Source: Leeuwenhoekiella sp. MAR_2009_132
GTDB taxonomy: Bacteria; Bacteroidota; Bacteroidia; Flavobacteriales; Flavobacteriaceae
Length of the DNA: 64,000 nt
Direction of reading: 5' to 3'
Assembly (NCBI RefSeq): GCF_000687915.1
Contig: NZ_JHZY01000004.1
Span: forward strand, 1,560,001 to 1,624,000
Shown here: positions 20,870 to 47,367 of the stretch, piece by piece
How positions within the stretch are numbered: the first letter of the stretch is position 1
How the letters are laid out: each line of letters starts with the position of its first letter
Position numbers and translations under genes: made by a program
The notes under the pieces: generated by a model
Database searches by the model: none
Seen by the model: the letters and a program-made list of their open reading frames with translations, nothing else
Told to the model about the DNA's origin: nothing

Positions 20870-21280
20870 TTAGCAATATTCGTTGAAAGCATCAATTAGA
20901 TTGTCTGCAATAAGGTTTGCAGGACGCCCTTCAATGTGATGACGCTCTAACATATACACTAATTCCCCATCTTTAAAAACCGCCATAGAGGGTGATGAAG
21001 GAGGAAAAGGTACCATAAAGCTGCGTGCAAGATCTGTAGCCTCGCGGTCAACACCTGCAAATACAGTATATAAATTATCTGGAGTTTTAGCATTTTGAAG
21101 AGCCATACGCGCTCCTGGTCTTGCATTAGCTGCGGCACAACCACAAACCGAATTTACAACCACAAGAGTTGTACCTTCTTTTTTCATTGCTGCCTGTACA
21201 TCTTCTGTTGTATGTAATTCTGTGAAACCTACAGAAGTAAGGTCTTCACGCATAGGTTTTACTAATTCTGCTGGATACAT
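20870..21280 (-). CDS. BrxA/BrxB family bacilliredoxin
   Basis: A 136-aa thioredoxin-fold protein with the atypical redox motif Cys46-Gly-Cys48 in NSVCGCAAANARPG, the hallmark of the YphP/YqiW bacilliredoxins. The remainder (YTVFAGVDREATDLARSFMVPFPPSSPSMAVFKDGELVYMLERH) matches the family closely. In Firmicutes these proteins remove bacillithiol from mixed disulfides. Bacteroidota carry homologues, and bacillithiol use here is inferred. The protein is cytoplasmic and full length. Confidence 0.92.
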   Translation of the reverse strand: MYPAELVKPMREDLTSVGFTELHTTEDVQAAMKKEGTTLVVVNSVCGCAAANARPGARMALQNAKTPDNLYTVFAGVDREATDLARSFMVPFPPSSPSMAVFKDGELVYMLERHHIEGRPANLIADNLIDAFNEYC

Positions 21281-21592: not shown

Positions 21593-22339
21593 ATGATTAA
21601 ATATATAGGAGCCATTATAGGCTTTGCATACAGAGGTTTATTAGGGGCAGTTGCAGGTTATGTTATAGGTACACTTTTAGATAGTTTGTTTTTTAATAAA
21701 AAAGAAACGACAGCTACAGGTGGTAGATCACCTTTTAGCAGAGCAGAACAAACTGTTACTCCAGGTGATTTTGAACTCAATTTACTTTCGCTGTGCTCTA
21801 TTGTAATCAAAGCAGACGGGCAGGTGAGTCAACGAGAGATGGATTATGTACGTCAATATTTTGTGCAGGCCTACGGTAAAGACAGAGCTAATGCAACTTT
21901 TAGAACATTTAATGAAGTTATAAAAAAGCGTGAAATTAATGTAGAGCGTATATGCACCTATTTGACCCAGCGTACGCGAAGAGAAGTGCGTTTACAAATC
22001 GTACATTTTCTATTTGGTATTGCACAGGCAGATGGTACGGTATCAACTTCAGAGGTTAATCAAATCTCTCAAATAGCCGGTTATTTAATGTTGAGTCGTG
22101 GCGAATTTGAAAGCATAAAAGCTATGTTCTTTAAAAATGCGGAAAGCGCCTATAAAATTCTCGAAATTGAGAAATCGGCTACAGATGCAGAAGTTAAGAA
22201 AGCATACCGTAATATGGCAAAAAAATACCATCCAGATAAACTACAGCATATGGATGAAGCGTATCGTCAGGGAGCAGAAGAAAAATTCACTAAGGTTCAG
22301 GAAGCGTATGAGACGATTCAGAAAGAGCGGGGAATGTAA
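21593..22339 (+). CDS. DjlA-like protein: membrane anchor, TerB-like and J domains
   Basis: A 248-aa protein. A Gly-rich hydrophobic N-terminus (GAIIGFAYRGLLGAVAGYVIGTLLDSLFF) anchors it in the inner membrane. A TerB/DjlA-type helical domain (about 58-165) contains CSIVIKADGQVSQREMDYV and GIAQADGTVSTSEV, a pair of acidic motifs. The C-terminal J domain (about 183-248) has the HPD motif in AKKYHPDKLQHM. It should recruit DnaK to the membrane. The final 67 coding bases are repeated at 23822, past the next gene, which marks this site as a recombination point. Confidence 0.85.
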   Translation: MIKYIGAIIGFAYRGLLGAVAGYVIGTLLDSLFFNKKETTATGGRSPFSRAEQTVTPGDFELNLLSLCSIVIKADGQVSQREMDYVRQYFVQAYGKDRANATFRTFNEVIKKREINVERICTYLTQRTRREVRLQIVHFLFGIAQADGTVSTSEVNQISQIAGYLMLSRGEFESIKAMFFKNAESAYKILEIEKSATDAEVKKAYRNMAKKYHPDKLQHMDEAYRQGAEEKFTKVQEAYETIQKERGM

Positions 22340-22341
22340 TA
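22274..22341 (+). repeat. 68-bp direct repeat, copy A (3' end of the J-domain gene)
   Basis: Bases encoding AEEKFTKVQEAYETIQKERGM plus stop. Copy B lies at 23822-23889 with 65 of 68 bases identical by eye. The two copies bracket the unknown secreted protein gene. Confidence 0.85.
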
Positions 22342-22363
22342 TTTTAATAGACTAATTTAAATT

Positions 22364-23776
22364 TTGATTTTGACCAGGTATATTTTTTCAGTTATTGTAA
22401 TTTTAAGTGCAAATACCTTTTCTCAGGAAATTGCCTCTATACCTTTAATAGACAAAATAAATGCCTACAATATAGACGAAGAACTAAATCTGATAAAAAG
22501 TCGAGATAGCCTTTTATATGTAGTGCAACGAGTCGCATCAGATGTTAAGATTACCACATTTGATGCTGAATACAATCAAGTCAAACAGGTAAATTTAACC
22601 GATTCCCCTTTTAAAAATTACAAAATTTTATCTTCTGCATCTGTTGATAATTCAATGCTTTTTTTGCTTTCGGGCGGAATATTTAAAAATAGGTTTTCAC
22701 TCATTTCGTATAATTTTCAGAATCAAAAGTTTGAAGAAATTCTGCAGCTTCAAAAGTTTATAAACGAAGAATTTTTAGGCTCATTTTTTATTAAAGATAA
22801 GTTGCACTTACTTACTGTGAGCCTCGATAGTCAGGAGTTGTCGATTTACACAATTAGTAAAGCCAGTAAAATCTCCAAAAAGAGCTATGATTTTTCTCAT
22901 TATAAGTTCAAAGCTCCAGGTTTTAGTGACGAGAAGCTCAAATATCTCTTTTATCAAAAAGGAATAAGTCCTATTGAAAACAATGAGATAGATTCGTTTC
23001 TTGGAGCTTCATTAAAAAATAAAAGCTATGTGTTCAATCAGGAATTGTGGTTAACTTTTGATCAGGATCCCGAACTTACGAGACTAATTAAATTTAATCT
23101 GGATAATGGGAAAATGGCTTTACAGGATATTCCAAAGCCGCTATCAAGTGAAGGTCGAATGAGGGAATCTAATTCGTTTATAAAAGATAAATATATTTAT
23201 CAGCTCGCGTTAAATAAAAAAGAAATGATCTTAGAAGTTAAAAATCTGGAATCAGGACTTATGGATTATCGATTTAGTGTAAAAGAAGATGAGAATATAG
23301 GTATTAGAAACACTGAAGTAAGACTTAGAGGCGCTGCCTATGTCAAAGAACGGGTGTTAGAAAAAACTTCACAATTCATAAGAAAAGTGGTTTCCTCAGA
23401 ATCGGCAATTTTCGTTAGAAAAATTAATGATACCATACAGATGCGTATTGGCGCAAACAGAAGTTCTTATCCCGGGGTCATAATGGCAGGGGCAGTCAAT
23501 TTTGATGGGGCACCTCAAAATTATTTATATAGTAACCCCTTGCCTATAAGTGATTTAAGTGCGGTAAGTGATAGATGGATTTCTTTTAGTGCTGTCTTCG
23601 ATTCGAATTTTAATCATTTGGATACTGAAACAATCCCCAACTTATATGATAAAATCAAAGATTTTAAAGAATCAAAAGATTTAAAAAAGGATATTAAAGA
23701 TGCATTAATTTTTTTTGGAGAAAACTACATATATTCTTACGTCGACAAGGGCTTTGTAAAGTTGGTAAAGTTTTAG
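22364..23776 (+). CDS. Secreted protein of unknown function, TTG start
   Basis: A 470-aa protein. No ATG precedes the signal peptide: an in-frame stop lies at 22358 and the only candidate starts are TTG at 22364 or 22370. The signal peptide ISVIVILSANTFSQE-like segment is clear (RYIFSVIVILSANTFSQ). The rest has beta-rich repeats of about 40-50 residues that suggest a beta-propeller-like fold (LLYVVQRVASDVKITTFDAEYNQ, then LLSGGIFKNRFSLISYNFQNQKF). No catalytic motif is recognised. It is noticeably Lys/Asn/Ile-rich and AT-rich compared with its neighbours. It lies between two copies of a 68-bp repeat of the J-domain gene's 3' end, which suggests insertion by recombination. Confidence 0.7.
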   Translation: MILTRYIFSVIVILSANTFSQEIASIPLIDKINAYNIDEELNLIKSRDSLLYVVQRVASDVKITTFDAEYNQVKQVNLTDSPFKNYKILSSASVDNSMLFLLSGGIFKNRFSLISYNFQNQKFEEILQLQKFINEEFLGSFFIKDKLHLLTVSLDSQELSIYTISKASKISKKSYDFSHYKFKAPGFSDEKLKYLFYQKGISPIENNEIDSFLGASLKNKSYVFNQELWLTFDQDPELTRLIKFNLDNGKMALQDIPKPLSSEGRMRESNSFIKDKYIYQLALNKKEMILEVKNLESGLMDYRFSVKEDENIGIRNTEVRLRGAAYVKERVLEKTSQFIRKVVSSESAIFVRKINDTIQMRIGANRSSYPGVIMAGAVNFDGAPQNYLYSNPLPISDLSAVSDRWISFSAVFDSNFNHLDTETIPNLYDKIKDFKESKDLKKDIKDALIFFGENYIYSYVDKGFVKLVKF

Positions 23777-23821
23777 ACTTTAAAAATTAATAGGGGCTAA
23801 ATTGAATCTTCTGGCGCCCCT

Positions 23822-23889
23822 GCAGAAGAAAAATTCACTAAGGTTAGGGAAGCGTATGAGACGATTCAGAAAGAGCGGGGGATGTAATA
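23822..23889 (+). repeat. 68-bp direct repeat, copy B (orphan J-domain gene tail)
   Basis: Differs from copy A at three bases. It would read AEEKFTKVREAYETIQKERGM plus stop if it were translated, with one Gln to Arg change and one synonymous change. No J-domain sequence precedes it, so it is a gene remnant. Confidence 0.85.
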
Positions 23890-24022: not shown

Positions 24023-27000
24023 ATGCTTCGATTAATACTCTGTTTAATAGCTTTAATAAGTCTCAGCTTAAACGCTCAGCAAGTAACCGTTAGTAATCCA
24101 CGCCCTGCAGGGGAGTTGGTTGATTTGCTATTCAACGATTCTTGTGCAGAAATTTCAAATGTTTCCATATCATCAATCCAGGCAGCAGGATCTTTTTCTA
24201 ATAATGGAGGTGCCTTTCCATTAGCTAACGGAGTTGTTTTACGCACGGGAATAGCAACTCTTACCGGAGGGGCATATACAGGCAATACCGCAGATTTAAG
24301 CAGTGAATTAAACACAAACTCAGATACCTATCTTCAAAATTTGAATGATGCATCCGGTAGTGGTGCTCAGATTAACGAAACCTCATTTTTAGAATTTAAC
24401 TTTACACCGCTTTCCAGTAATTTTAGTTTCGATTTTATTTTTGCCTCTAATGAATACGGGGAGTGGCAGTGTTCCTCTCAAGATATTGTTGCTTTTGTAT
24501 TAACAGATTTGAGTACAGGTAATGCTCAAAATCTTGCAATTACCGCTTCTGGAGAATCTGTATCGGTGCGTAATATTAGAGATCAGCGTTTTAATCCTAC
24601 GTGCAATTCTGTAAATGAAAATCTTTTTGACTCGTACGAAGTCACAAATGCACAGTCTACCATAAATATGCGGGGTTATACTCAGGTTCTCAATGCCGCA
24701 TCTACCTTAACTCCGGGAACACCCTATAATGTGCGTATTGTTATAGGAGATTCTAATGACACAAATTTTGATTCGGCTATTTTTCTTGCCGGCGGAAGTT
24801 TTAATACTAGTGTAGATCTGGGGCCAGACCGTACATTGTGTAGCGGCGATCAGGCAACTTTAGAAACCGGTTTAGATGCTTCGGTTTATAACCACAGTTG
24901 GCTTTTTAATGGCACAGTAATTCCTAATCAAAATGCAAGTAGCATAACGGTTAACAGAAGTGGAACTTACACGGTACGCATTACCAATAATGGGTGTGAA
25001 GTAACAGATGATTTAACGATAAACGAACTCACGGTCACTCCGCCAGTAAATCTTGAAGAATGTCCTAATGGTGGAGATCCTTCCATATTTGATTTGACAC
25101 AAAATGATGCAGATGCTTTAGACGTAGATTCTTCTCAGTTTGAAGTTATGTATTATGCATCGCTTTCAGATTTAAATGCAAATAATCCTATTCCTGCAAA
25201 TCAAACTACAGCATTCTCGAGTACAGGGCAAACTATCTATTTGAGATTACGTAATTTAATAAGCGGCACTATTTGTGGCGCTACCTATAATTTTGATCTT
25301 GATGTTTTACCCGCCATTACTATAACTCAACCTGCACCAATTGAGGTTTGTACCATCCCGGGAAGTGACCTAACTATAAATCTAAATCAAATAGACAACC
25401 GCATTCTCAATGGTCAAAATCCTGCGCTTTTTACGATTACCTACTATGCAAATCAGAATGATGCAAATGCCGCACAAAATGCGTTAAGTGCTACTTATGT
25501 TATTGAAGATGGAAATTCTAGAGAAACACTTTGGGCACGGGTTTCATATGCGTCTAATGAGCGTTGCTTTAGAACGGTAAGTTTTGATATTATTATCAAT
25601 GATTTGCCACCGGTAGATCAATTGGGTAATGTAATTACCTGTAATGCTTACGAGTTAGAACCGCTTACAAACGGAAATTATTTTAGTGGATCTAATGGTA
25701 CTGGGGTTCGGTATAATGCAGGAGATATAATTACAGCAGATATAGATCTATTTATTTTTAATGGGCCTGATGCTAATGGGTGTAGCAACGAGTCTTCTTT
25801 CAGTATTACATTTGTTACAGAGTTTGATTTAAGCGAAGTAGAAGCTTGTGGCGAATTTAGTATTCCTCCTACTCCGGCAGGTGCATTTTACACGCAGCCT
25901 AATGGGCCAGACGGAACAGGAAGACGTCTAAATACCGGGGAAGCATTAACTACCTCTCAAACTATTTATTTTTATTTCAATGAGAATAATTCAGTGTGTA
26001 GAGATGATGCTTTTGACATCATTGTATACCCCTTGCCGCTCGTAGATATGCCTGCAAATGTGGTGGCTTGCAACAATTTTACCCTTCCGGCATTAACAAA
26101 TGGGAACTATTTTACAGAACCCGAAGGACAGGGAACACCACTAAACGCAGGTGATTTAATTGAAGAAACACAATCTGTGTACATATTTGCAGATGATAGC
26201 CGCTGTACTAATGATTATGAATGGCGCATTTTTATTGTAGAAGAGTATACAGATATGACGGTTTGTGGCAGCTTTACAGTTCCCACTGTCGAAGCAGGTG
26301 ATTTTTATACTGCTGCATTAGGTGGCGGTATACTTATACCGCAGGGAACGGTATTAAATATATCACAGCGTATTTATTATTACGTAAACACAACAGATGG
26401 TCCTAATTGTACCAATAATTCCTTTTTTGAATTAGAAGTGATAAATACTCCACCAGTTGATACGTTGTCAGATCAATTATTATGTGAAGGTGATACGTAT
26501 ACCTTACCTACACTAACAAACGGGGAGTATTTTGAGGGTCCGGGGAGATCAGGTGCGCAGTATTATGCAGGAGATGTCATTAATACGACACAAACGATTT
26601 ACATTAATAATCAGGTACGTATTTGTGAAAATGAAACACAGTTTACAGTTGAAATTAGACCATCATTGCCTGTAGATAATCTAACCTTTGTATTCTCTTG
26701 TGAAGCGTACACATTACCCGATTTAAATAACGGGAGGTATTTTACTGAATCACAGGGACGAGGAACGGAGCTTTTTTCGGGAACTGAGATTACAACAACA
26801 CAAACCATATTTGTTTATAATGCATACGATGATTTCCCGTCTTGTTATTCAGAAAACAGGTTTACCATAAATATCCTGGGAGTTGAAGTAGAAACCTTTA
26901 ATGATGTGATATCATGTGATAGCTTCACATTGCCGGCAATTAGCTCAGGAAACTACTACACAGCATCTGGTGGTCAGGGTACGCCGTTAAATGCAGGTGA

Positions 27001-28078
27001 TATCATAACGACCACGCAGGAGATTTTTATTTATGCCCGTAACGGAACGCGGTTTTTTTGTGAAGATGAAAGTAGTTTTACCGTGACCATTTCAGAAACT
27101 CCGGTTTTAATTCCTGAAGCAGATGTTGAGGTTTGTGGGGTTTATAGATTACCAGACTTACCACAAGATGTGTTCGCTCAGGGCTATTATTTAAGCCGAA
27201 ACAAACAAAATCCCATCCCTGTTTCTGAATATGAATTACAACCGGGAACTTACACGATTTTTAAATATGCAGAAGCATTAAACAATGCAACCTGTTTTGC
27301 TGAAGATTCTTTTGAAGTCATTGTGTATCCTCTTTTAGATTTTACTGTTGACGGTGGTACTGTTTGTAGAAATGCAGCCACAGGAGCGGTAGAAAGTGGT
27401 GTTTTATTAGATTCGGGACTCGACCCGGCAGAATTTTTAGTAAGTTGGTTTTTAAATGGTCAGGAAGTTAATCAGGGCTCAACATTTGCAGTAGAACAGG
27501 CCGGTATTTATACTGTTTCAACCCAGAAACTCACTCCAGACGTGGGTGCGGCTTGTAATTACAACCCCACAACTGTCGAAGTTTTTGAATCTGCAGAGCC
27601 TGTTGTAGAAGTAGAAATTACCCGGCCTTTTGAAGATGTTTCAGGAATACGGGTTGCGATTATTCAGGGGTATGGGGATTATGAGTATCAATTAGACGAC
27701 CAGGCTTTTCAAAACACACCCGAGTTTATAAATGTGTTGCCGGGGCCACATACCGTTACTGTACGCGGCATTAACGGCACGTGTGGAGTTACAATTGTTG
27801 AGGTGCAGGTTATAGATTTTCCGAAGTATTTTACACCTAATAATGATGGGTATCACGATACCTGGAACATTACAGCGCTCGAAGACTACCCCGAGGCACA
27901 AATTTTTATATTTGACCGGTTTGGGAAACTTATAAAAAACATCTTTCCATCTGGCCCGGGCTGGGATGGGACCTATCGAGGGGTAAATATGCCTTCAGAC
28001 GATTACTGGTTTAGAGTTGAGTATATTTTTGAAGATCGTCCAGCTGAGTTCAAATCACATTTTACGCTAAAACGGTAA
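24023..28078 (+). CDS. Giant T9SS type B surface protein with choice-of-anchor L domain
   Basis: A 1351-aa protein with a signal peptide ending LNAQQ. An N-terminal choice-of-anchor L domain spans about 25-255 (FLEFNFTPLSSNFSFDFIFASNEYGEW, VRIVIGDSNDTNFDSAIFLAGG). An Ig/PKD-like unit follows at about 262-332. Then come spacer domains and eight related Cys-anchored repeats from about residue 540 to 1100 (pattern C.x.LP.LTNG.YF...G.GT.L..GD.I..TQ.IYI). The last 85 residues form a gliding-motility-associated (type B) C-terminal tail: FTPNNDGYHDTWNI, IFDRFGKLIKNI and GWDGTYRGVNMPSDDYWF. It should be secreted by T9SS and remain on the cell surface, where it may act as an adhesin. Neighbouring genes give no operon partner. 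Confidence 0.86.
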   Translation: MLRLILCLIALISLSLNAQQVTVSNPRPAGELVDLLFNDSCAEISNVSISSIQAAGSFSNNGGAFPLANGVVLRTGIATLTGGAYTGNTADLSSELNTNSDTYLQNLNDASGSGAQINETSFLEFNFTPLSSNFSFDFIFASNEYGEWQCSSQDIVAFVLTDLSTGNAQNLAITASGESVSVRNIRDQRFNPTCNSVNENLFDSYEVTNAQSTINMRGYTQVLNAASTLTPGTPYNVRIVIGDSNDTNFDSAIFLAGGSFNTSVDLGPDRTLCSGDQATLETGLDASVYNHSWLFNGTVIPNQNASSITVNRSGTYTVRITNNGCEVTDDLTINELTVTPPVNLEECPNGGDPSIFDLTQNDADALDVDSSQFEVMYYASLSDLNANNPIPANQTTAFSSTGQTIYLRLRNLISGTICGATYNFDLDVLPAITITQPAPIEVCTIPGSDLTINLNQIDNRILNGQNPALFTITYYANQNDANAAQNALSATYVIEDGNSRETLWARVSYASNERCFRTVSFDIIINDLPPVDQLGNVITCNAYELEPLTNGNYFSGSNGTGVRYNAGDIITADIDLFIFNGPDANGCSNESSFSITFVTEFDLSEVEACGEFSIPPTPAGAFYTQPNGPDGTGRRLNTGEALTTSQTIYFYFNENNSVCRDDAFDIIVYPLPLVDMPANVVACNNFTLPALTNGNYFTEPEGQGTPLNAGDLIEETQSVYIFADDSRCTNDYEWRIFIVEEYTDMTVCGSFTVPTVEAGDFYTAALGGGILIPQGTVLNISQRIYYYVNTTDGPNCTNNSFFELEVINTPPVDTLSDQLLCEGDTYTLPTLTNGEYFEGPGRSGAQYYAGDVINTTQTIYINNQVRICENETQFTVEIRPSLPVDNLTFVFSCEAYTLPDLNNGRYFTESQGRGTELFSGTEITTTQTIFVYNAYDDFPSCYSENRFTINILGVEVETFNDVISCDSFTLPAISSGNYYTASGGQGTPLNAGDIITTTQEIFIYARNGTRFFCEDESSFTVTISETPVLIPEADVEVCGVYRLPDLPQDVFAQGYYLSRNKQNPIPVSEYELQPGTYTIFKYAEALNNATCFAEDSFEVIVYPLLDFTVDGGTVCRNAATGAVESGVLLDSGLDPAEFLVSWFLNGQEVNQGSTFAVEQAGIYTVSTQKLTPDVGAACNYNPTTVEVFESAEPVVEVEITRPFEDVSGIRVAIIQGYGDYEYQLDDQAFQNTPEFINVLPGPHTVTVRGINGTCGVTIVEVQVIDFPKYFTPNNDGYHDTWNITALEDYPEAQIFIFDRFGKLIKNIFPSGPGWDGTYRGVNMPSDDYWFRVEYIFEDRPAEFKSHFTLKR

Positions 28079-46124: not shown

Positions 46125-46198
46125 TCCTCCTTAGCTCAGTTGGTTAGAGCATTTGACTGTTAATCAAAGGGTCCTTGGTTCGAGCCCAAGAGGGGGAG
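46125..46198 (+). tRNA. tRNA-Asn (GTT)
   Basis: A cloverleaf of 74 nt. The acceptor stem is TCCTCCT / AGGGGGA with one G-T pair, the D arm GCTC/GAGC, the anticodon stem TTTGA/TCAAA with anticodon GTT at 46159-46161, and the T arm CTTGG/CCAAG with TTCGAGC. The discriminator base is G, and CCA is not encoded (GCA follows). It is a single gene with its own promoter and terminator. Confidence 0.95.
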
Positions 46199-46205
46199 CA
46201 AAATT

Positions 46206-46237
46206 AAGCCTTAACTAATTCTAGTTGAGGCTTTTTT
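46206..46237 (+). terminator. Terminator of tRNA-Asn
   Basis: Stem AAGCCTTAACTA / TAGTTGAGGCTT with one G-T pair and loop ATTC, then a T-run, 8 nt past the tRNA. Confidence 0.85.
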
Positions 46238-46386
46238 GTTTTTAGGCGGTTTGGTTTATCTAACCGTTTATCTAAAATAGATTAGACAGCAGAAGAAAAA
46301 GGTAGCTCTTCTTATGAGTTGGCTAATATTGCAATGAGTTTAAGTTTAATGGAAGCTAGATAAGCTTTAAGTGAAATTTAAATTTT

Positions 46387-47367
46387 CTAACCTAGAAAAA
46401 CCTCTTGATTATGCCAAGCTAAAGCTTCAACAGAAGGTAGATACTTTTCATATTTAGGCAATTTAATTGGAAATCCACTAAGATCTAGAAGCTCTCTCGT
46501 AGATTCAGATTCATTTATAGAAGAAGAGATTTGCACTTTATACTTTAAGTCTATCGTTATGAGACCTCTATCAAATGCTCTATGCAAAGTAGGGCTTAAG
46601 GATATGCCATTGCTTATAGTATCATCCTGACTTTGACTAAAAGGAATTATGTGGCAGGCGTCAACCATCTGAAAATTATGATTGGAAATGACTTTTAATC
46701 CTGAAATACAACAAGTATAGTCATATATCTTAGGTACTGTTTTTTTGAATACACCTCCTCTAACAAATAATTCCTCTTCAAAATTAGTTTCTTCAAGTTT
46801 AGCTTTAATACTATTCAATTTTAATACGTATTCAGCTCTTGAATCATTTAATATTTGTTGCTCTATTATGTTTTCTAAATATCCTTGTTTATTAGCTTGA
46901 AGAGCAAGTGTATGTCCCGGAAAGTATGACTCTAATAGAAATTTCTTCATTATAATTCTATAGGACTGTATTTGAAGTAATTCAAATAATTCCTTGTCAA
47001 TTTCAGCAAAGGCAACTAGTTCAATAAGTTTGTAAATGCTTTTTGCACTTTTCATTTTATCAAACGTTCTTTCAAAACCCATTCGAGGAATTAATCTATA
47101 AAAAGGTTCACTTTTCATGTGGAAAAAAGGAAGGGCAAAATTATCGTGATGCCCTGTTTCAACTAAAGCAGCAAAATATTCTTTAAATCTTAATACCAAT
47201 TCTGGAGTAATGTCAAATCTATTACTAGTTAATAGACCTCTTTCAGCAATATCTATGATAGAAATCAGAAGAATAGGCTTGTGAGGAGCTTTGCCAAAGC
47301 CAGGATTAAAACCTCTATTCAATTTCTTGAAATGGTTTAAATATTTTACTAATAATTCTTCCATCAT
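46387..47367 (-). CDS. HNH endonuclease with N-terminal sulfur-binding-like domain
   Basis: A 326-aa protein. The N-terminus (residues about 5-100) reads KLNRGFNPGFGKAPHKPIL, then ITPELVLRFKEYFAAL and FALPFFHMKSEPFYRLIPR. This matches the start of the restriction-type proteins in which an SBD reads APHKPLLLL... FWRL and binds phosphorothioated DNA. The C-terminal HNH domain (about 215-300) has CCISG, DACHIIPFSQS, DTISNGISLSPTLHRAFDRGLITID: a Cys, the HNH His pair and Asn, all present. It is likely a standalone modification-dependent restriction enzyme. It is more AT-rich than its neighbours and lies beside tRNA-Asn, suggesting horizontal acquisition. The SBD assignment is from memory of family sequences. 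Confidence 0.75.
   Translation of the reverse strand: MMEELLVKYLNHFKKLNRGFNPGFGKAPHKPILLISIIDIAERGLLTSNRFDITPELVLRFKEYFAALVETGHHDNFALPFFHMKSEPFYRLIPRMGFERTFDKMKSAKSIYKLIELVAFAEIDKELFELLQIQSYRIIMKKFLLESYFPGHTLALQANKQGYLENIIEQQILNDSRAEYVLKLNSIKAKLEETNFEEELFVRGGVFKKTVPKIYDYTCCISGLKVISNHNFQMVDACHIIPFSQSQDDTISNGISLSPTLHRAFDRGLITIDLKYKVQISSSINESESTRELLDLSGFPIKLPKYEKYLPSVEALAWHNQEVFLG

Follow-up and report, generated by a model that had tools for sequence, protein, structure and literature searches.

A single accessory gene at the 3′ end of djlA in Leeuwenhoekiella sp. MAR_2009_132, probably inserted by recombination anchored in the gene end

We analysed a stretch of 64,000 nucleotides from Leeuwenhoekiella sp. 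MAR_2009_132, called here the window. The locus of interest consists of a djlA-like gene, a gene that we call X, and a direct repeat of 68 bp (copies A and B) on either side of X:

20870..21280, minus strand: upstream neighbour, a gene of the disulphide isomerase / YphP type, PF06491 (Pfam 2.4e-63)
21593..22339, plus strand: djlA-like gene with TerB and a C-terminal J domain, intact (Pfam TerB 6.8e-23, DnaJ 1.9e-17)
22274..22341, plus strand: copy A, the djlA 3′ tail and 2 further bases, in frame, the real djlA end
22361..22372, plus strand: X start region, reading I-L-I-L against M-L-I-L in the homolog P0004, with TTG as the likely start
22370..23776, plus strand: X, the inserted gene, 468 aa, with a signal-peptide-like N-terminus and a predicted beta-propeller fold
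23777..23821, no strand: spacer from the X stop to copy B, with an abrupt joint at 23821/23822
23822..23889, plus strand: copy B, a non-coding and apparently decaying copy of the djlA tail, followed by right-hand sequence like the native spacer of L. aequorea (G008)
24023..28078, plus strand: native downstream neighbour, 1351 aa, with a CHU_C (type IX secretion) domain (PF13585, 8.8e-13)

The two copies are identical at 65 of 68 positions (BLAST E 8e-28) and lie 1548 bp apart; an ungapped search of the window with a seed of 14 reported no other direct repeat of 40 nt or longer. In the whole genome, a 111-base query around the djlA tail had two matches. The repeat had been noticed in a preliminary description of the window, and its position and three differences are as given there: CAG in copy A is AGG in copy B (two bases, Gln to Arg), and GGA is GGG, which is synonymous. 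Its count of 67 coding bases has to be corrected, as 22274-22339 comprises 66 coding bases with the stop counted in, and two further bases after the djlA stop belong to the repeat.

As had been remarked, X has no ATG start and opens with TTG, at 22364 or 22370; the window frame from 22361 reads I-L-I-L-T-R-Y, and the N-terminus of P0004 is M-L-I-L-N-K-Y. We read the signal-peptide-like N-terminus as that of a secreted protein, and the structure model, with four-stranded blades repeated in a ring, identifies the product as a predicted beta-propeller; a first model, with a pLDDT of 64, was superseded by this later one. Pfam gave no match for X, and the lack of a PADLOC match spoke against a known defence gene. 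The reported AT-richness of X is real on overall GC (32.1%). Its third-position GC (29.0%, compared with 21-38% in the other window genes) and codon usage are, however, unremarkable, so that the AT-richness appears to reflect amino-acid content, and the idea that X is foreign by codon usage was unsupported. X had no match in plasmids and phages, two X peptide patterns had none in viral contigs, and one exact pattern of the djlA tail was absent from the viral contigs searched; X as phage or plasmid cargo was rejected on these grounds. The gap between djlA and X is 30 bp, and the two genes are perhaps co-transcribed, which stays a guess because the start of X overlaps promoter-like sites, of which the region has 10 against 7.5 expected by chance. 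As to the wider propeller family, 27 of the 29 loci examined in Flavobacteriaceae (L084-L112) have metG no more than 1.5 kb from the family gene, a conserved neighbourhood; in a Dokdonia MAG (L127:10322-12639) two family genes are direct neighbours, with about 25% identity of the first to the second, whose ORF was read in part.

The locus was compared with those of 12 congeners: L. aequorea (G008), L. palythoae (G010), L. polynyae (G009), L. aestuarii (G002), L. parthenopeia (G003), L. marinoflava (G005), L. blandensis (G011), L. nanhaiensis (G004), Flavimarina sp. Hel_I_48 (G007) and the MAGs G001, G006 (9% contaminated) and G012 (81% complete). All 12 have djlA (77-88% identical), and the PF06491 gene adjoins it in 11 loci; in the twelfth, that of G004, this gene is present but cut by the locus end. 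On the other side, djlA is directly followed by the counterpart of the gene at 24023 in eight congeners (G008, G010, G003, G004, G011, G001, G012 and G007), with about 153-345 bp from the djlA stop to the start of that gene. Other DNA separates the two genes in G005 (2.5 kb) and G002 (6.1 kb), and the 24023 gene is absent within 16.3 kb (G009) and 17.2 kb (G006) behind djlA. Because djlA directly precedes the 24023 gene in 8 of the 12, this comparison identifies X together with copy B as an insertion. The clean junction that the preliminary description had suggested looking for in relatives was thus found, and its proposal of an insertion behind an intact djlA was borne out by this empty site and by the patchy occurrence of X.

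Relatives of X were present in 3 of 60 genomes: the own genome, G006 (24% identical) and G031 (23%). G006 carries the only X homolog among the 12 congeners, the other 11 lacking one, and with P0002 as the query X was again found in two of 13 genus genomes (the own genome and G006). The protein database held four close X sequences, the own one included; the others were P0002 (78%), P0003 (71%) and P0004 (65%). A search of named genomes with one X protein gave no match. The suspected patchy distribution was therefore confirmed, with one homolog in 12 congeners and four close database proteins. These data also bear on a local origin of the repeat, in which a tandem duplication starting at 22274 would have doubled an older djlA-X order and loss of the second X would have left copy B. 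Such an origin would explain why the tail and X make up one repeat period of 1548 bp, but X is missing from 11 of 12 congeners, and copy B meets native-like spacer directly, so that the second X would have to have been lost exactly at the tail end; we give a tandem duplication only a slim chance.

P0002 comes from Leeuwenhoekiella sp. NPDC079379. Its longest contig is 180048 bp, as is that of the djlA protein P0012 (98% identical), so that the two are presumably on one contig in this strain, from which adjacency does not follow. Another djlA protein of 98% identity, P0013, comes from Leeuwenhoekiella sp. W20_SRS_FM14; no X from that strain was among the listed matches, an absence that hinges on the completeness of its genome. 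P0003 and P0004 have the source 'lgn', taken to mean Logan assemblies, and lie on contigs of 1529 and 1560 bp, which exceed the gene by only 116 and 144 bp. By comparison, all 38 djlA rows with 'lgn' as the only source, among the 120 listed, have a longer flank (189 or more), and the contig of P0007, a distant propeller-family member from 'lgn' only, is 9228 bp long. The short contigs of P0003 and P0004 are consistent with contigs ending just outside X, whether at a repeat or at a presence/absence border, and prove neither.

The relationships of X were also considered with regard to a move within the chromosome, in which X would be a metG-linked propeller gene that had relocated to djlA. We regard this as improbable: the tree separates X and its three close relatives, as one clade, from the other sequences by a branch of 2.1 changes per column, and it places the metG-linked copy of the congener G006 with another genus. 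A propeller-family member does lie about 2-4 kb from djlA in 4 of 80 djlA loci, all of them from Dokdonia, but there the gene has the opposite orientation. A relocation would agree with the metG linkage at 27 of the 29 propeller-family loci examined and with the situation in the host, where metG is 62 kb from djlA and the gene next to metG is one that we take to be tex-like, with no propeller gene between these two.

Copy B had been described as a diverged allele of a foreign lineage, a reading that our comparisons do not support. Copy B matches copy A at 63 of 66 positions and the 12 congeners at 48-53 of 66 (copy A matches the congeners at 50-55 of 66). Moreover, its Arg replaces a Gln that is invariant in all djlA compared, namely in 15 of 15 aligned djlA proteins, the own one included (the best 15 of 120 listed), and in 24 of 24 readable family loci (29 tried). 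Since copy B is nearest to copy A and has Arg at this invariant position, it looks like a drifting, non-coding relic of the djlA tail of the same lineage, although it may come from a very close, unsampled strain. The change from CAG to AGG may also have arisen through loss of C and gain of G, in other words through two frameshifts tolerable only in non-coding DNA. This speaks against copy B as a working foreign allele. The preliminary description had set two findings against its own account, that copy B is closest to copy A and that gene X is universal; the former is what we observed, whereas X is far from universal. Copy B was rejected as a structured RNA or terminator (fold z-score of -0.23, no terminator-like site), and Rfam gave no match there at the gathering threshold.

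The loci read for the 12 congeners contain no second copy of the respective djlA tail. The same holds for 80 named djlA loci of the family (the 80 best among 316), in which no further tail duplication appeared within about 6 kb; 79 of them had at least 500 bp downstream, and one gave a 19-bp inverted match. As none of these 80 loci repeats the tail, the scar is so far unique. That gene-tail scars might be a genome-wide habit was considered and rejected: in a scan of 464 kb, about one tenth of the genome (the window and 400 kb, with 2.5 kb masked as N), for repeats of 35-599 bp at least 80% identical and less than 30 kb apart, the djlA tail was the sole case outside one repeat cluster to the left of the window.

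The two sides of the insertion differ. On the left, no seam is visible where copy A runs into X. The joint on the right, at 23821/23822, is abrupt: the bases to the left of copy B are unlike those to the left of copy A, and copy B continues into sequence resembling the djlA-24023 spacer of G008, the nearest congener. The spacer 23777..23821 showed neither a terminator-like nor a cassette-type end. X is the sole ORF of at least 80 aa between A and B; no integrase or transposase occurs among ORFs of this size there, and no inverted repeat of at least 20 nt was found at the borders of A-X-B. The locus thus has neither the integrase between repeats that marks an integrase-borne genomic island, nor the transposase and terminal inverted repeats (at least 20 nt, at the borders) of a transposon or IS. 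An integron-type cassette was likewise rejected, there being no complementary GTT.../...AAC boxes around X. What the locus does have is a duplicated gene end with one seamless and one abrupt joint, as left by single-crossover integration or homology-facilitated illegitimate recombination (HFIR).

Integrases acting at 3′ ends duplicate gene ends and leave the gene intact. An intact gene with a duplicated end is typical of their products, and the integrative elements concerned share with our locus the intact gene end and the direct repeat at both borders. The djlA 3′ end could then be an attachment site, with A and B bordering an element that was reduced to X or moved by an integrase encoded elsewhere, and a phage-integrase fragment does lie behind djlA in G009. 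Here, however, a single gene of 1.4 kb is enclosed and no integrase was found between A and B; the djlA tail has only two matches in the genome, its pattern is in no viral contig, phages and plasmids gave no match, and 0 of 12 congeners have a second djlA tail in the loci read. Site-specific integration thus seems unlikely to us.

On balance, we consider it probable that gene-end-anchored recombination brought X, a single accessory gene, to the djlA 3′ end. The seamless left side, the abrupt right side, the duplicated gene end and the lack of a mobility gene inside argue for an integration driven by homology to the gene end, and the earlier suggestion of recombination at the gene end that left the host gene intact remains the best account, djlA being intact. 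The insertion, the intact djlA, the tail copy and the abrupt right joint are shown directly by the locus and its comparison with the congeners, and the steps leading to them would have been as follows. In the incoming DNA, X would have directly followed a djlA tail, and one homologous crossover in the djlA end would have linked the host djlA, undamaged, to X. The other end would have been joined illegitimately within the tail, either through circularisation of a linear fragment and a single crossover or, alternatively, through one-sided HFIR. Copy B would be the 68 bp of djlA tail that remained, untranslated as djlA and free to drift, and X alleles would afterwards have been swapped among close strains by homologous recombination. 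The donor order, with X directly behind djlA, was not seen in the data examined.

A precedent is found in E. coli, where 56 of 60 clones scored as one-sided gave a PCR product diagnostic of lacZ-end duplication and 14 sequenced clones confirmed a duplication of 109-950 bp; the authors of that study name as the cause a single crossover of a circular molecule with part of the homologous end lost (PMC3240628). Our locus shares with these integrants the homology to the gene end at one side, the added foreign DNA, the duplication of part of the gene end and the dispensability of an integrase. It differs in that the E. coli duplications of 109-950 bp were obtained by experimental conjugation, whereas here a natural scar of 68 bp is the trace from which the event is reconstructed. 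By this analogy, we infer that the same kind of event took place at djlA.

The later history of X was approached by comparing its alleles. Between the window and P0002, 64 of the last 67 residues of X are identical, against 302 of the preceding 401, and the best breakpoint lies at residue 405 (97% identity to the right, 75% to the left), a value reached by 6 of 1000 shuffles. The last 67 residues are not simply conserved, because the five other X pairs are only 61-69% identical across them. However, identity also falls sharply in three of these five pairs, from about residue 367 on, a drop matched by 0 or 1 of 1000 shuffles; since X identity is uneven in general, as in these three pairs, the shuffle figure alone does not show recombination, and the sharp change may come partly from uneven constraint. 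In the relative whose djlA is 98% identical, 22% of X differs, but the last 67 residues are almost the same. Such a pattern, in which near-identical sequence (on the left, djlA at 98%) flanks a divergent middle, suggests that X alleles were probably exchanged later among close strains by homologous recombination.

Allelic replacement could also be taken as the whole explanation, the A-X-B block having arrived from another lineage by a double crossover in djlA and the 24023 gene. It draws on the uneven identity of the window and P0002 in X and on the variability of the DNA behind djlA across the genus; it accounts for the spread of X but not for the origin of the scar, and it is compatible with gene-end recombination. 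As the only process involved, it has little probability. Equally doubtful is the idea that X with its own djlA tail forms a self-docking single-gene unit of about 1.55 kb. We likewise give little credence to its proposed cycle, in which recombination between A and B would free a circle with one tail, which RecA alone would re-dock at any djlA end. If true, the tail would serve as a portable address without an integrase, and the unit would account for the 98% identity of djlA against 78% of X and for the 'lgn' X contigs of 1529 and 1560 bp, close to the unit length.

The position behind djlA is occupied by other genes elsewhere in the genus: a DUF4062 gene and other ORFs in G002 (L038:10186-16330), HigBA in G005 (L042:5560-8010), and Shedu, DMP19 and a phage-integrase fragment, together with a match to a group II intron (RF01999), in G009 (L039:10900-16350). 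The minimal mobile element of Neisseria is defined as a stretch bounded by two conserved genes that holds different whole genes in different strains and acquires them by homologous recombination alone (PMC3898611). The djlA and 24023 genes, adjacent in 8 of 12 congeners, delimit such a region, and different whole-gene cassettes occupy it in different species (X here, HigBA in G005, DUF4062 and other ORFs in G002). As to the mode of incorporation, there is no integrase beside X, the right joint looks non-homologous, and G009 has the integrase fragment and the group II intron; integron-like ends mark the inserts of other species, and the definition includes no tail copy. From this comparison, the djlA-24023 spacer behaves like a minimal mobile element (PMC3898611), with mobile remnants in the inserts of other species.

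In the own genome, 7-16 kb to the left of the window (L074:4172-13380, C4 about 1544172-1553380), we observed a series of small genes with imperfect repeats of 120-200 bp, some with hairpin-like AACCGC...GCGGTT; this cluster looks like an integron-type cassette array. Exact complementary GTT.../...AAC boxes of 7-10 nt accompany 7 of 18 suspected cassette genes (4 of 8 behind djlA in G002, G005 and G009, 3 of 10 in the cluster), compared with 0 of 38 control genes of the window with a 7-nt box and 3 of 38 with a 6-nt box, in a test run after the motif had been noticed. A complete integron in Bacteroidetes has been described from Salinibacter, only lone integrases having been known before, according to PMC9024848. 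A separate observation within the window (46125-47367) is a tRNA-Asn adjoining a lone AT-rich gene on the opposite strand with an HNH endonuclease domain (31% GC, third-position GC of 21%); the tRNA-Asn has no further copy in the window beyond a 12-base match.

Among the papers listed, titles and abstract beginnings contained no account of a single gene in Bacteroidota bracketed by the tail of a core gene. The insertion of X looks like the docking of an accessory gene at a core-gene end without an integrase of its own, and it leaves a readable scar of that process. In other species of the genus, toxin-antitoxin and defence-type genes occupy the same place behind djlA. Should the tail copies permit exchange to recur, X would be a natural test system for integrase-free gene mobility in marine Bacteroidota.
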